Shown piece by piece: positions 3,053 to 8,608 of a stretch of DNA of 37,226 bases. The stretch is from a virus. A program made the translations under genes and the position numbers. The notes under the pieces are model-generated. The model did not search any database. It worked only from the letters and a program-made list of their open reading frames with translations, and had not been told where the DNA came from. Numbering within the stretch: position 1 is the stretch's first letter; each line of letters begins with the position of its first letter. The stretch lies in IMG/VR virus record IMGVR_UViG_3300035704_000386, positions 1 to 37,226 of that record, one strand, 5' to 3'.

Positions 3053-3244
3053 ATGGCCATGGCACGCAACCTTATAGCGGTCGGCTGCTGCAAGCCCGAC
3101 GACGTTGCCCGCGAGCGGCCGCAGATCGTGCTGCGGTTCGATCGCGAGACGTTCGACCAGGTCGCGCGACGCGCGGCCAATAATGGCCACAGCTTCAACG
3201 AGGAATGCCTTCTGCTGATCGAATGGGGGCTCGAGGCCGAATGA
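3053..3244 (+). CDS. Arc-like ribbon-helix-helix DNA-binding protein
   Basis: 63 residues (a second in-frame ATG lies at 3059). The C-terminal 40 residues read as a ribbon-helix-helix: a strand QIVLRFDRE, helix A FDQVARRAANNG, then the turn and helix B SFNEECLLLIEWGL. This is the Arc/MetJ layout, with Arg in the strand facing DNA and a Ser-Phe-Asn-Glu-Glu start to helix B as in Arc-family phage proteins. It would act as a dimeric DNA binder, possibly regulating this accessory run. The N-terminal 20 residues contain a Cys-Cys pair. The stop overlaps the next ATG (3241). Confidence 0.65.
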   Translation: MAMARNLIAVGCCKPDDVARERPQIVLRFDRETFDQVARRAANNGHSFNEECLLLIEWGLEAE

Positions 3245-3459
3245 CCAAGCGCCCCCTCCCCGATCATGCTCGCGCGGCGGCTTCGGCTGAAATCACCGCC
3301 CACCCTCTCGTCGTCGAGTTGTTTCGCGCGCTGCCCCCGTCCGCCGCCGAATTTACTGCGGAACGGCGCGCCGCCTGGCTGCGCGCAGCCGCGGCGATCT
3401 TCATCCTGCTCTACGGCGCCGTCGGAAATCTCGACATCACCTGGTCGGAGGATTCATGA
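3241..3459 (+). CDS. hypothetical protein, hydrophobic C-terminal half
   Basis: 72 residues from the ATGA overlap with the ribbon-helix-helix gene. Residues about 45-62 (AAAAIFILLYGAVGNL) are hydrophobic enough for a short membrane segment, preceded by an amphipathic helix. No family recognised. The stop overlaps the start at 3456. Confidence 0.5.
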   Translation: MTKRPLPDHARAAASAEITAHPLVVELFRALPPSAAEFTAERRAAWLRAAAAIFILLYGAVGNLDITWSEDS

Positions 3460-3611
3460 CCGCCGTCGGTCGAGAACAAGCGAAGGTGGCCCGCTGGAAT
3501 TCCGCGCATCCCGCGGCAGCCGTGCCGGTCACCTACGTCCACGACGACTTCACAGTCACTCTAACGCACATGCCTATCCGGTTTTCACCCAATGACGCAG
3601 AAACCTACTAG
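3456..3611 (+). CDS. 51-residue hypothetical protein
   Basis: Starts in the previous stop (ATGA at 3456-3459) and ends with TAG directly before the ATG of the E2-like gene, so it fills the gap with no spacer. The middle (VPVTYVHDDFTVTLTHMP) alternates like two beta strands. Supported by exact packing rather than homology. GC content starts to fall within this gene, continuing into the next one. Function unknown; co-translation with the E2-like protein makes a partner role possible. Confidence 0.45.
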   Translation: MTAVGREQAKVARWNSAHPAAAVPVTYVHDDFTVTLTHMPIRFSPNDAETY

Positions 3612-4025
3612 ATGTTGAATCCTCACATTGAAAGCGGCCTCGCGCGGCTCAAAACCAGATGGCCGCAATCGCATGCGGTGCCAGGCCAGCACGGCTATTT
3701 CTTGATCGTTGTTCCCGGTGTGCTTTTACCCCGCGGCTATCGAGAGACGATTTGCACCGTCCTTTTCGTCGCGCCTCCCGGCTTTCCCGCAGCATGTCCT
3801 GATCATTTCTACACTGACATCGAAATTAGGTTGCAGAACGGCGAAATCCCGAAGGCTGCGTTGCCCGCCCACCCCGTTCACGGCGGAAATTTCCCGAAAC
3901 GTCTTTGGCCTCAATGGGAGGGGTGCATGTGGTGGTCATGGCACTTGCAGATGTGGAATCCGAACCAGAGCAGCCTCTACACCTTCATGAAGGTGATCCA
4001 GCAACGCCTCAACCCGGCACGCTGA
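3612..4025 (+). CDS. stand-alone prokaryotic E2 (E2/UBC superfamily, Prok-E2_E-like) protein
   Basis: 137 residues. The E2-fold signature of the Prok-E2_E group is visible in order: GYFLIVVPGVLLPRGY (28-43), a central strand TVLFVAPPGFPAACPDHFYTD (start 49), then a C-terminal block with Trp102, Cys105, the WWSWH motif (107-111) and a W-N-P followed by SLYTFM. E2 proteins carry a ubiquitin-like protein on a catalytic Cys between an E1 and a target. Candidate Cys here are Cys105 and Cys62 (Cys48 is in a strand); which, if any, is catalytic cannot be decided by eye. Normally such genes sit beside E1/ThiF and JAB peptidase genes; none is visible here. The gene is clearly lower in GC than its neighbours (28 of 60 bases are G+C in 3781-3840). 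Fold call fairly sure; activity unknown. Confidence 0.78.
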   Translation: MLNPHIESGLARLKTRWPQSHAVPGQHGYFLIVVPGVLLPRGYRETICTVLFVAPPGFPAACPDHFYTDIEIRLQNGEIPKAALPAHPVHGGNFPKRLWPQWEGCMWWSWHLQMWNPNQSSLYTFMKVIQQRLNPAR

Positions 4026-4026
4026 C

Positions 4027-4179
4027 ATGACCACAACATCTAGAGGCGTGGGTGCCAACCGGACAGGCATGATAACGCAGACCCGCACGAAGGCGCAGCT
4101 TCTCGGCGGCCACACGGCCGTCGTCTGGCTCGATGACGTGCGCGGGTGCGTAGCGCTCGACAGGGTCAAACCGCGATGA
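4027..4179 (+). CDS. 50-residue hypothetical protein
   Basis: ATG at 4027, one base after the E2-like stop; TGA at 4177-4179 overlaps the ATG of the following ATPase. The N-terminal 20 residues are Thr/Arg-rich and polar; the rest (GGHTAVVWLDDVRGCVAL) could form two strands and holds one Cys. Too short for homology judgement; coupling on both sides supports it. Its tie to the E2-like gene by spacing is the only functional hint. Confidence 0.45.
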   Translation: MTTTSRGVGANRTGMITQTRTKAQLLGGHTAVVWLDDVRGCVALDRVKPR

Positions 4180-5972
4180 CAAACGCGAAATTCCCGCTCC
4201 CCGACAAGGCGCTCGAGGCGCACATCGCGGTCCTCGGCAAGACCGGCGCCGGCAAGACGACCACGACCAAGGACATCGTCGAGCATGTCGTCCCGATGGG
4301 CTTCCGGGTCTGCGTCCTCGACACCATCAAATCCGACTGGTGGGGCATCACCTCGAGCGCGAGCGGCAAAAGCCCGGGCCTGCCGTTCAAGATCCTCGGC
4401 GGCCCGCGCGGTCACGTGCCGCTGCACTCGTCCGCCGGCGGCGTCATCGGCCAGCTCGTCGGCCGCGGCCAGCTTCCGCTCTCGATCGTCGACATGGCCA
4501 ACTTCGAGGCCGGCGGCATCCAGCGATTCTTCGTCGATTTCGCCGAGGCGCTGTGGAAGAACGCGCGCGGCGTCGTCTACCTGGTGATCGAGGAGGCGCA
4601 CGAGCTCGCGCCCAAGGAGCGCGCCGGCTTCAACGCCGAGAACATGTCGATCCATTGGGCGAAGAAGCTTGCGACCGGCAGCCGCAAAAAAGGCATCCGC
4701 CTGATCGTCGCGTCGCAAAGCGTCCAGCAGCTGCACAATCGCGTGCTCGGCAGCTGCGAGACGCTGATCGCGCATCGCCTGATCGCGCCGGCCGACCAGG
4801 ACCCGATCGTCAAATGGATGAAATCCAACGCCGGCAAGGCGCGCGCCGACGATGTCGAGGCCTCGCTTTCCTCGCTGCCGACCGGGACCGCGTGGGTGTG
4901 CTCGGGCGAGGCGAAGGTGTTCGAGCGCATCACCTTCCCGAAGAACAAGACCTTCGACAACACCGCGACGCCGACCGACGACGCGGCCGATATCGACGTG
5001 CGGACCGCCGCCGTCGACCAGGACGAGCTGCGCACGCTGATCGGCGAGGAGGTCGCGAAGGCGGAGGCGAGCAATCCCGAGAAGCTGAAGGAGCGGATCG
5101 CCGACCTCGCCGCGAAGCTTTCGCGCGCGGAATATGCCGTCGGCGTAGCGCAAGAAGCCCATGCGGCCCCGCCCGATCCTGCGGCGCTCGGCAACGCTCG
5201 GCGAGACGGCCGCCGCGGCGGCCTGGTCGACGGCCACACCGCGGGCTTCCGTGATGGCTGGGACGCACGCGGAAATGCCGTCGATCGCGTCATCGCCGCT
5301 ATCGGCGCCGGCGAGGAATTGTTTGCGCGCGACCTCGGTACTGCCCGCACGGAGTTTTCGCGCAAGAACCTCGCTGCTCTTGTCGACGTGACAGCTCCTG
5401 CGCAGGCGTCTCCCGCGCCGGCACGGCAAGCCCTGCAGGCGCAACAGAAGCCCGCCGCTGCGCCTGCCACGAACGGCGCCAGCGACCGCAATCAGCAGGT
5501 CGACCGGCGCGTGCTCGGCGCGCTCGCCGAGCTCGAGGCGCTCGGTACGTCGGCGCCGACCCGTGAACTCGTCGGCGCCATGGCCGGCTTCGGCAATATC
5601 ACCTCCAAGGGCTTCCGCCAGGCGGTTGCCTTCCTCATCGGCGAGGGTTCGATCGAGATGCCGCGCGACGGGCGCCTGGCCCTCACCGACGCCGGCCGCG
5701 CGATCGCGCCGCGCGCTGCGCGTCCCGGCACAGTCGCCGACATGCGCAACCGCATCGTCAGCGTGCTCGGCGCGCCGGCCGATCGCATCCTGGACGAGCT
5801 GATCCGGATCTACCCGCAGTCGATCGAGCGCCAGGCGCTCGGCGATCTCACCGGCTTCGGCAACATCACCAGCAAGGGCTTCCGCCAGTCGGTCGCGCGG
5901 CTGATCGACATGGGCTTTGCGGCCAACCACGAGGCCGGCAAGGTCAAGGCAACTGAGGCGCTGTTTCCGTGA
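4176..5972 (+). CDS. HerA/DUF87-like P-loop ATPase with duplicated C-terminal winged-helix-like domain
   Basis: 598 residues from ATG 4176 (ATGA overlap); this start puts the P-loop near the N-terminus as usual in the family. Walker A is GKTGAGKTT (21-29), Walker B is VVYLVIEEAHE (133-143), and a GSRKKGIRLIVASQS segment (about 172-186) matches the sensor strand of HerA/FtsK-class translocases. These form hexameric motors pumping or unwinding DNA. A helical, Glu/Lys-rich linker follows, then an Ala/Pro-rich hinge, then two copies of a helical domain, each with the core GFGNITSKGFRQ (about 508-519 and 572-583), which look like winged-helix DNA-binding units. Neighbours are an E2-like gene upstream and a second ATPase 0.7 kb downstream. 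It is not a terminase: no nuclease domain. Confidence 0.82.
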   Translation: MTNAKFPLPDKALEAHIAVLGKTGAGKTTTTKDIVEHVVPMGFRVCVLDTIKSDWWGITSSASGKSPGLPFKILGGPRGHVPLHSSAGGVIGQLVGRGQLPLSIVDMANFEAGGIQRFFVDFAEALWKNARGVVYLVIEEAHELAPKERAGFNAENMSIHWAKKLATGSRKKGIRLIVASQSVQQLHNRVLGSCETLIAHRLIAPADQDPIVKWMKSNAGKARADDVEASLSSLPTGTAWVCSGEAKVFERITFPKNKTFDNTATPTDDAADIDVRTAAVDQDELRTLIGEEVAKAEASNPEKLKERIADLAAKLSRAEYAVGVAQEAHAAPPDPAALGNARRDGRRGGLVDGHTAGFRDGWDARGNAVDRVIAAIGAGEELFARDLGTARTEFSRKNLAALVDVTAPAQASPAPARQALQAQQKPAAAPATNGASDRNQQVDRRVLGALAELEALGTSAPTRELVGAMAGFGNITSKGFRQAVAFLIGEGSIEMPRDGRLALTDAGRAIAPRAARPGTVADMRNRIVSVLGAPADRILDELIRIYPQSIERQALGDLTGFGNITSKGFRQSVARLIDMGFAANHEAGKVKATEALFP

Positions 5973-6493: not shown

Positions 6494-6747
6494 TGCCCGA
6501 GCTTTTCACCGTGCACGACGCCAAAGACGGCTGCTGCCAGGAGGCCGCGCTTGGCCTCCCGTTCTACGCGCCTTGCAATAAGCCTGCCGTGGCGATCGTC
6601 GGCTGGAAGGGGCGCACCGAGCCGCCACTCAGGATGTGCAAGGCCTGTACGGATCACAACGTCAAAAAACGCAGCGGCGTCGTCATCGAGACGCTCGAGG
6701 AGGAAGACAATGGCTCCGCCAATTGCAACGCGCCCCGCGGCCGCTGA
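6490..6747 (+). CDS. small putative zinc-binding protein
   Basis: 85 residues starting at the ATGATG overlap (6490 or 6493). It has a Cys-Cys pair near residue 16, a single Cys in APCNKPA, and a Cys-x2-Cys in MCKACTDHN followed by Val-Lys-Lys-Arg, consistent with one zinc site. Related small phage proteins ending in a 'MC..C..HNVKNRG' pattern exist as unknowns (from memory). Its last 38 bases overlap the start of the second ATPase gene, whose Shine-Dalgarno (GAGGAGGAA) lies inside this gene. Confidence 0.6.
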   Translation: MMPELFTVHDAKDGCCQEAALGLPFYAPCNKPAVAIVGWKGRTEPPLRMCKACTDHNVKKRSGVVIETLEEEDNGSANCNAPRGR

Positions 6748-8608
6748 CGCGGCATTTGCAGACGCACTCAATGGCCGCGGGTTCGGCCTCAAAGGCGCAG
6801 GCGCGCCGATCAAAGCCGCGCCGCCGGCAAAACCTGCGCCACGGTCGATCCGCGACGGCGAGGTCGACATCGGCCGCGCGCCGAATGGCGACGCGATCGG
6901 CCTCGACCTCGGCAAAGCGATCGCCGGCCGCGTGCTCATCCAGGGCAATAGCGGCGCCGGCAAGTCGTGGTTGTTGCGACGCGTCTTCGAGCAGGCGTTT
7001 GGCCGCGTACAGCAGCTCCTCATAGATCCGGAAGGCGAGTTCAAGACGCTCGCGGAGAAGTTCGACGTCGCCGTTTTCTCTGCCGCAGAGGCGCTTCGCG
7101 TCGGCGGTTCGGCCTTTGCGCGCCATCTGCGACAGCATCGCTATTCTGCCGTGCTCGATCTGTCCGACGCGACCGCCGAGCAGCAGATGCGGCTTCTCGC
7201 CGAAGTCGCGACCGGCCTCATCGAGGTCCCTGCGGAACATCAGCATGCGCTCCTCGTGCACGTGGACGAGGCTCAGTCGCTGGTCCCGCGTTACGACCCC
7301 GGCGACGTTGACAACGAGACGCGCGCCAGGGCGCGCGCGGCGCTCGCCGAGCTTATGGGCCGTGGCCGCAAGCGAGGTCTTGCAGGAATCGTCGCCACAT
7401 CGCGCATCGCCGAGACGGCGACGTCGGTTATAGCCCGGCCGACGAATATCATTGTCGGTCGCACCATCTTCGATCGCGACCTCGAGCGCTGCGGCCTGGC
7501 GCTCGGCTATACGGCAGGCGGCGCCAAAGCGCTGCGCACCCTCGCCGACGGCGAGTTCATCTGTCTCGGGCCGGCGATCGCCGGGCCGACGCGCGTCCGC
7601 TTCCGCTGCGGGCCCGTGCAATCGCCGCACAAGGGAGAGACGCCTGGCATCGCGGCGCCCCCTTCTTTGACAGCGGCGCAATCGCGCGAGCTGCTCGGCC
7701 AGGTGCCGAATGTGGATGCTGACGAAAGCTTTTCGGGTCATGCAGCGCCTCAGGACGCCGCACGCGGCCCGCGGAACGTGCCAAGTCGTGTCTGGACGGT
7801 CGACGAAGAGGAGATCGTGCGCGACGGCTATGCGCGCGAACGCTCGCTGACCGATATCGCAAACGACCTCGTCGCCGGCGGCTTCGCCCGCCGCCGCGGT
7901 CCGGCCATCTGCATGCGGGCCCGAGCGCTCGGCCTCGCGAGCTCCTCGCGAAGCGCGCACAACGACTGGAGCGAACCCGAGGACGAAATCGTGCGCCGCG
8001 GCTATGCGGACAAGGACTGCAAGATCGTCGATATCGTCACTTTGCTCGCCGGCGCCGGTTTCGACAGAAGCCGCCAATCCGTACAAATGCGCGCCATCGC
8101 GCTCGGCATCACACGCGACCGCGTCAACTACTACACCGACGAAGAGATCGCGATCGCCAAATCCGCGCTCGAGGCTGGCAAGGCCAACCGCGAGATCATC
8201 GCCGACCTGCGAGCCGCGGGCTATCATCGCGGCGTCACGTCGATCTCGAAATTCGCGCAAAAGCACGGATACGACCGCAGCTCGGAAGGATGGTCGACCG
8301 AGCAGCTCGCAATTCTGCGCGAACGTTACGAAGCCAAGGTCCCGGTGAAGCAAATCGCGGCTGAGCTTTCAAAGCCGATCGGCGGCGTGCGCGCGAAGGC
8401 AAGCAATCTCGGACTGAAGCAACGCCTTCCGTGGACGGAGGCAGAATATAAAATGCTTCGCGACGCCAATGCCGCGGGCGATCGCCTGGCCGACGTCGCC
8501 GAGCGAATAGGAAAGCCCTATCCGAACGTCGCGCGGGTCGCGGCGACCCTCCAGCTTGATTTTCGCACCGGCCGCACGCCGCGCTCCAGCGAGGCTACGA
8601 ATGGCTGA
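6710..8608 (+). CDS. HerA/FtsK-like P-loop ATPase with five C-terminal Myb/SANT-like repeats
   Basis: 632 residues; ATG 6710 is chosen because GAGGAGGAA sits 6-12 bases upstream, although the frame is open further. A 50-residue Ala/Pro-rich lead precedes Walker A GNSGAGKS (79-86) and Walker B LLVHVDEAQ (181-189); an RGRKRGLAGIVATSR stretch (218-232) fits the sensor region of HerA-type motors. From residue 361 five repeats of 47-58 residues follow, led by Trp362, Trp420, Tyr475, Trp528 and Trp575, each an acidic first helix (DEEEIV or EPEDEIV type), a middle helix ending in Ile-Ala or equivalent, and a basic third helix, as in SANT/Myb or GcrA-like DNA-binding units. Likely a DNA-tethered motor; substrate unknown. 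Its architecture differs from the ATPase at 4176. Confidence 0.8.
   Translation: MAPPIATRPAAADAAFADALNGRGFGLKGAGAPIKAAPPAKPAPRSIRDGEVDIGRAPNGDAIGLDLGKAIAGRVLIQGNSGAGKSWLLRRVFEQAFGRVQQLLIDPEGEFKTLAEKFDVAVFSAAEALRVGGSAFARHLRQHRYSAVLDLSDATAEQQMRLLAEVATGLIEVPAEHQHALLVHVDEAQSLVPRYDPGDVDNETRARARAALAELMGRGRKRGLAGIVATSRIAETATSVIARPTNIIVGRTIFDRDLERCGLALGYTAGGAKALRTLADGEFICLGPAIAGPTRVRFRCGPVQSPHKGETPGIAAPPSLTAAQSRELLGQVPNVDADESFSGHAAPQDAARGPRNVPSRVWTVDEEEIVRDGYARERSLTDIANDLVAGGFARRRGPAICMRARALGLASSSRSAHNDWSEPEDEIVRRGYADKDCKIVDIVTLLAGAGFDRSRQSVQMRAIALGITRDRVNYYTDEEIAIAKSALEAGKANREIIADLRAAGYHRGVTSISKFAQKHGYDRSSEGWSTEQLAILRERYEAKVPVKQIAAELSKPIGGVRAKASNLGLKQRLPWTEAEYKMLRDANAAGDRLADVAERIGKPYPNVARVAATLQLDFRTGRTPRSSEATNG

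Follow-up and report, generated by a model that had tools for sequence, protein, structure and literature searches.

The gene and its cassette

The window, i.e. the complete stretch of 37,226 nt of IMGVR_UViG_3300035704_000386, is a contig of a tailed soil phage with genes for a head protease, a major head protein, a portal fragment, a tape measure protein and an endolysin. At positions 3612–4025 of its plus strand an open reading frame encodes a protein of 137 aa, which was assigned to the Prok-E2_E family by Pfam PF14462, by BubB chains of the PDB and by hhalign. The original prediction had described a stand-alone, phage-borne protein of the E2 superfamily at this place, and this description was confirmed. 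The reading frame and the motifs quoted for it are real, the HMM search with PF14462 gave a match above the curated cut-off (E=6.1e-11, 42.6 bits versus 25), and no match to ThiF/E1 or Prok-JAB domains was obtained in the contig, which is possibly a fragment. Multi_ubiq gave no match in this possibly fragmentary contig either, nor was any control genome positive for it. With a GC content of 56.8% compared to 67.3% for the genome, the BubB-like gene lies within the lowest 0.3% of windows of equal size. The same operon encodes an Arc-like ribbon-helix-helix small DNA-binding protein upstream (3053–3244) and two HerA/mad8-like ATPases (4176–5972 and 6731–8608), the second of which has a C-terminal fusion matching a D5-like transcriptional regulator (phrog_323). 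This ATPase pair was also observed in at least one other phage contig (L055).

The BubB-like reading frame is the only gene of a 503-bp transposase-less mobile cassette (3569–4071, plus strand), delimited by terminal inverted repeats (TIRs) and a target duplication. The left repeat, CATGCCTATCCGGTTTTCACCC (3569–3590, plus strand), and the right repeat, CATGCCTGTCCGGTTGGCACCC on the minus strand (4050–4071), pair at 19 of 22 nt. Outside of them the generic search located the 8-bp target-site duplication, CTAACGCA on the left (3561–3568) and ATAACGCA on the right (4072–4079), with agreement at seven of eight positions. About one in 400 random placements did equally well, possibly at the very same place.

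The insertion is directly demonstrated by the flanking sequences. After removal of the cassette and one duplication the adjacent reading frames, a 5' part at 3456–3568 and a 3' part at 4080–4179 (both plus strand), fuse in frame to an unbroken 70-aa protein that matches phrog_9165 over positions 8–69 of 70 with 62.2 bits. The right half alone reaches 47.5 bits and covers profile positions 36–69 only; the left half alone gives no match. The rejoined protein matches 35 Pseudomonas phages without a break and with up to 54% identity, and an intact 70-aa homologue is annotated in Pseudomonas phage PA8. The two tiny neighbours, formerly regarded as genes without known relatives, are thus halves of one phrog_9165-type gene, an insertion scar rather than partners, and were dismissed as independent genes. 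The empty site was reconstructed by rejoining the window flanks, and a syntenic one was not found among relatives of the downstream HerA-like ATPase. To judge from these sequences, there is hardly any doubt that the BubB-like gene is the passenger of a mobile cassette which split the phrog_9165-type gene; it landed there in the direction of the early-type operon. The frame beginning at 3456 now extends to a TAG at 3609–3611 that abuts the ATG of the BubB-like gene, which makes translational coupling likely.

Relation to BubB and conserved residues

A profile built from phage and cellular sequences (profile A2) matched Citrobacter BubB (PDB 9eae_C/9eav_D) at E=1e-7, and hhalign against cellular BubBs gave 99.8%. 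In PHROGs and PADLOC no model matched the 137-aa protein. For the polyUbl operons, row 6e, Iyer 2006 (PMC1779556) reported an E2-like protein without conserved Cys, which was considered likely catalytically inactive and an RWD-like representative of the fold. This family is now BubB. The title of entry 9eae, BubCD(D104A)-BubB, a crystal with the E1-JAB protein BubCD, indicates that Citrobacter BubB binds BubCD, and Citrobacter BubCD from this series of structures is matched by the E1/JAB neighbours of the cellular relatives (1e-32 to 1e-36). Structure prediction with AlphaFold2 on five sequences improved only to a low-confidence model (pLDDT 55, pTM 0.48, compared to pLDDT 44 in an earlier run on three sequences), so that the fold assignment rests mainly on sequence profiles. 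Foldseek with this low-confidence model listed 9eae_C BubB on top and below it the UEV domains, a kind of inactive E2, all at non-significant E values of 0.12 to 0.65. The protein is almost certainly BubB-like and non-catalytic, with a predicted catalytically inactive E2/RWD fold.

Five lone copies, i.e. those of the phages and one bacterial chromosome, and 19 cellular BubBs were compared residue by residue. Within Ser109-Trp110-His111 (3936–3944, plus strand) Ser109 is present in all 24 sequences and His111 in 21, and Trp115 is kept in 23. The lone copies share features of their own: the motif WPQW, residues 99–102 (3906–3917, plus strand), is invariant in this clade, whereas 18 of the 19 cellular BubBs have a gap there. 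Ser120 (3969–3971, plus strand) is found in 5/5 lone copies where 17/19 cellular BubBs have Asp; this near-invariant Asp sits after a W-x-P motif and is absent from all lone copies. Cys105 (3924–3926, plus strand), previously proposed as the catalytic residue, does not hold up in this role. The position reads C, C, S, C and S across the five lone copies, with Ser in L002 and L049, and is Cys in none of the 19 cellular members. The other cysteine, C62, is not invariant and is replaced by Arg in L049. An active E2 working via Cys105 was rejected on account of this non-conservation among lone and cellular members.

Lone relatives and sibling cassettes

Scans of IMG/VR revealed three further viral contigs with close relatives of 56–62% identity (G003/L001, G002/L002 and G399/L049). 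Among approximately 85,000 bacterial and archaeal species genomes one lone copy occurred, in an Acidobacteriaceae MAG (L006/L048). INPHARED phages contained no relative of the 137-aa protein. Patterns of the cellular BubB type yielded zero viral copies, so the lone clade alone is seen in viruses. In a tree that included four of the five lone copies, these form a single clade (support 96/99), sister to the rhizobial/Deinococcus-type BubBs. Low nonsynonymous divergence (pN 0.15–0.26) at near-saturated synonymous sites (pS 0.72–0.89) points to strong purifying selection on the lone protein. The gene is AT-richer than its own genome in 4/4 phage contigs, and the BubB-like protein is essentially all that these contigs have in common (tblastn, 1e-3), the sole exception being a stretch of 35% identity shared by G003 and G002.

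More distant PF14462 members were found in 13 further Acidobacteriota genomes, and relatives in 39 plasmid records (tblastn). Nearly all distant relatives that were inspected adjoin E1/JAB genes, with L021, where the reading frames are unclear, as a possible exception. The usual order at cellular loci is multiubiquitin, E2-like, ThiF/JAB, followed at the plasmid loci by a phosphotransferase-like gene and DUF6527. ThiF, Prok-JAB and Multi_ubiq, the adjacent BubA and BubCD, are missing from all four phage contigs, which are possibly fragments.

Some of the cellular loci show additional features. In the Bub operon of rhizobial plasmids (L023 7675–9279; relatives L024–L027) the "phosphotransferase" contains TCAD9, a ternary complex associated domain, and both it and a DUF6527 protein are encoded downstream of E1. 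A diverged subfamily of Prok-E2_E, seen at the Acidobacteriota loci L020 and L021, has WSKN for WSRH, lacks the conserved His and is preceded by a different small Ubl-like reading frame. Genes for an HTH protein and an ImmA/IrrE-type peptidase adjoin the Bub operons of L013, L014 and L025 and resemble the CapH/CapP regulators of immune operons.

The exact repeat of the window cassette is present in 46 IMG/VR stretches and, within the window, in two places only. Where the repeat forms an inverted pair (29 loci), perfect 8-bp duplications were observed 21 times; four of the 21 are apparently the same insertion, leaving about 18 independent ones. Longer elements with window-type ends encode a transposase with the zinc ribbon and DDE domains of IS1595 (PF12762 at 1.3e-33 and PF12760 at 5e-13 in L121). 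Duplications of 8 bp are the norm in the IS1595 family (PMC8101967), and both passenger-bearing ISs and transposase-less MICs are already known (PMC3129680).

Cassettes were also found around two other lone copies. On the Acidobacteriaceae chromosome (L048) the copy is flanked by GAF and PilZ genes and lies in a unit whose inverted repeats pair at 20/22 nt, with AAACTAAT as its perfect 8-bp duplication. In phage G003 it lies in a 465-bp unit with portal and scaffold genes on either side, whose inverted repeats agree at 17/22 nt and whose duplication, AAACTTTT, is perfect. The repeats of both belong to a second, GGGAAC type (diverged in G003), which also occurs on siblings with an IS1595 transposase (L071, L080). 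It is absent from the window, whose TIR is a separate motif. For G002 and G399 neither the GGGAAC motif nor the generic finder revealed cassette ends, which may reflect older insertions or another route. The same Acidobacteriaceae genome holds a second GGGAAC-type cassette (L068 627–1227, G001:C2) with a perfect 8-bp duplication and two small reading frames without known function (94 and 79 aa). In IMG/VR phage contigs, IS1595-type cassettes with perfect 8-bp duplications and single passengers fall into two families, L069–L090 and L091–L136.

The passengers of sibling cassettes are diverse. Mom, a classical anti-restriction DNA modification gene, occurs twice (L080 2206–4050, 1.6e-13; L111 4944–5870, 3.9e-30). 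A cytosine methylase is carried by L088 (3167–3863), weaker methylase-like genes by L090 and L077, and an RNA ligase by L104 (5565–6283, 8e-20). PAPS-reductase-like, MazG-like, DHHA1-like, SpoU-like and HTH proteins as well as many ORFans complete the set. This composition suggests counter-defence cargo without being proof of it.

Possible function and known systems

Among the kinds of function offered earlier, interference with a host system as decoy or inhibitor appears from sequence to be the most likely. The systems named at that time, Bil and CBASS Cap2, have to give way to Bub (polyUbl), which comes closest among host systems. As the sequences show, a lone BubB homologue entered the phage as sole passenger of a non-autonomous IS1595-type cassette. 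The phage protein would retain the core that seats BubB on BubCD and may bind host BubCD and/or BubA non-productively; the loss of the near-invariant Asp together with the gain of WPQW makes such binding the most likely outcome. As a competitive, dominant-negative decoy against host BubB it would switch off Bub conjugation during infection, and selection for this shutdown could keep the cassette moving between unrelated phages. A dead BubB homologue with its core kept, its acidic residue lost and no partner is best explained as a decoy against host Bub, the target suggested by homology.

We estimate the probability of this explanation as a whole (BubB homologue, cassette passenger and anti-Bub decoy) at about 45%; the non-catalytic decoy competing with host BubB is itself put forward tentatively. 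Mom and other known counter-restriction genes in sibling cassettes count in favor of the explanation. Counted against it are sibling cargo without obvious counter-defence role (MazG-like, SpoU-like, HTH, ORFans), the one lone copy in a bacterial chromosome and the lack of detectable ends in G002 and G399. Bub operons occur widely and are regulated in the manner of immune operons, yet an activity against phages is not known for them (PMC13373217; EMBO J 2026), a further point against a decoy. The broader notion that soil phages pool transposase-less IS1595-type cassettes carrying single counter-defence genes, with the BubB-like cargo as the first anti-Bub factor, has perhaps one chance to two against it and is correspondingly speculative.

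Two alternatives retain some weight. The phage protein might act as a functional substitute: together with host BubCD and BubA it would redirect conjugation to the benefit of the phage, e.g. to other targets, instead of blocking it. Purifying selection on Ser109, His111, Trp115 and the larger part of the BubB core would suit a partly functional protein, as would the conserved insertion specific to the lone clade. Since the near-invariant Asp is gone in 5/5 copies and the gene is accompanied by neither modifier, E1 nor isopeptidase, we regard a substitute as unlikely. Similarly improbable is bystander cargo, i.e. the capture of arbitrary small genes by IS1595-type cassettes with no particular benefit for the phage. 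The mixed cargo of the cassette families, which includes small ORFans, and the copy in a bacterial chromosome would be in line with it, whereas strong purifying selection across near-saturated synonymous divergence, a reading frame intact in five settings and clade-specific invariant features are not.

The place of the G003 gene between portal and scaffold genes could indicate a virion or assembly role in which the E2-like fold binds a phage protein independently of Bub. An inserted cassette, marked by its perfect 8-bp duplication, accounts for this position, and the four phages have essentially no structural proteins in common, leaving no common binding partner, so that such a role is very unlikely. 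Despite the E2-superfamily match and the Cys at position 105 of the window copy, active Cys-dependent conjugation, be it by hijacking host E1, by conjugating a modifier or by modifying virion proteins, is unsupported and can practically be discarded, because the family is described as catalytically inactive and Cys105 is dispensable.

If true, the anti-Bub decoy reading would provide the first genetic evidence for Bub as an antiviral system. The repeated exchange of a BubB homologue between phages as a single gene suggests circumstantially that Bub is of importance to phages; the phage protein would be a cheap reagent for testing the antiphage role of Bub. Beyond this gene, transposase-less IS1595-type cassettes represent a route for the exchange of single genes, Mom and DNA methylase genes included, among unrelated phages and bacteria.

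In comparison to known systems, the closest resemblance in sequence is to BubB of the Bub/polyUbl operons, with the same family assignment (Pfam, HMMER, HHalign), no catalytic Cys and the same Ser109/His111/Trp115 motif. Unlike BubB, the phage gene has no neighbouring Ubl, E1 or JAB and travels as a single gene on a mobile cassette, and its product carries Ser in place of the near-invariant Asp as well as the WPQW insertion. Bil and CBASS Cap2 likewise comprise bacterial E2-fold proteins, of proven immunity systems. Their E2s are catalytic, in contrast to the BubB-like family, and the PADLOC models remained unmatched. With phage moron or anti-defence cargo such as Mom the gene shares its small size, its foreign composition, its exchange as a single gene between unrelated phages and its cassette type; the target is in this case predicted from homology. 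The mobile unit itself corresponds to MICs and the transporter ISs of the IS1595 family with respect to TIRs, 8-bp duplications, a passenger in place of a transposase and relatives with the same ends and an IS1595 transposase; unlike those, it is found here inside phage genomes, with Mom, cytosine methylases and a BubB homologue as cargo.
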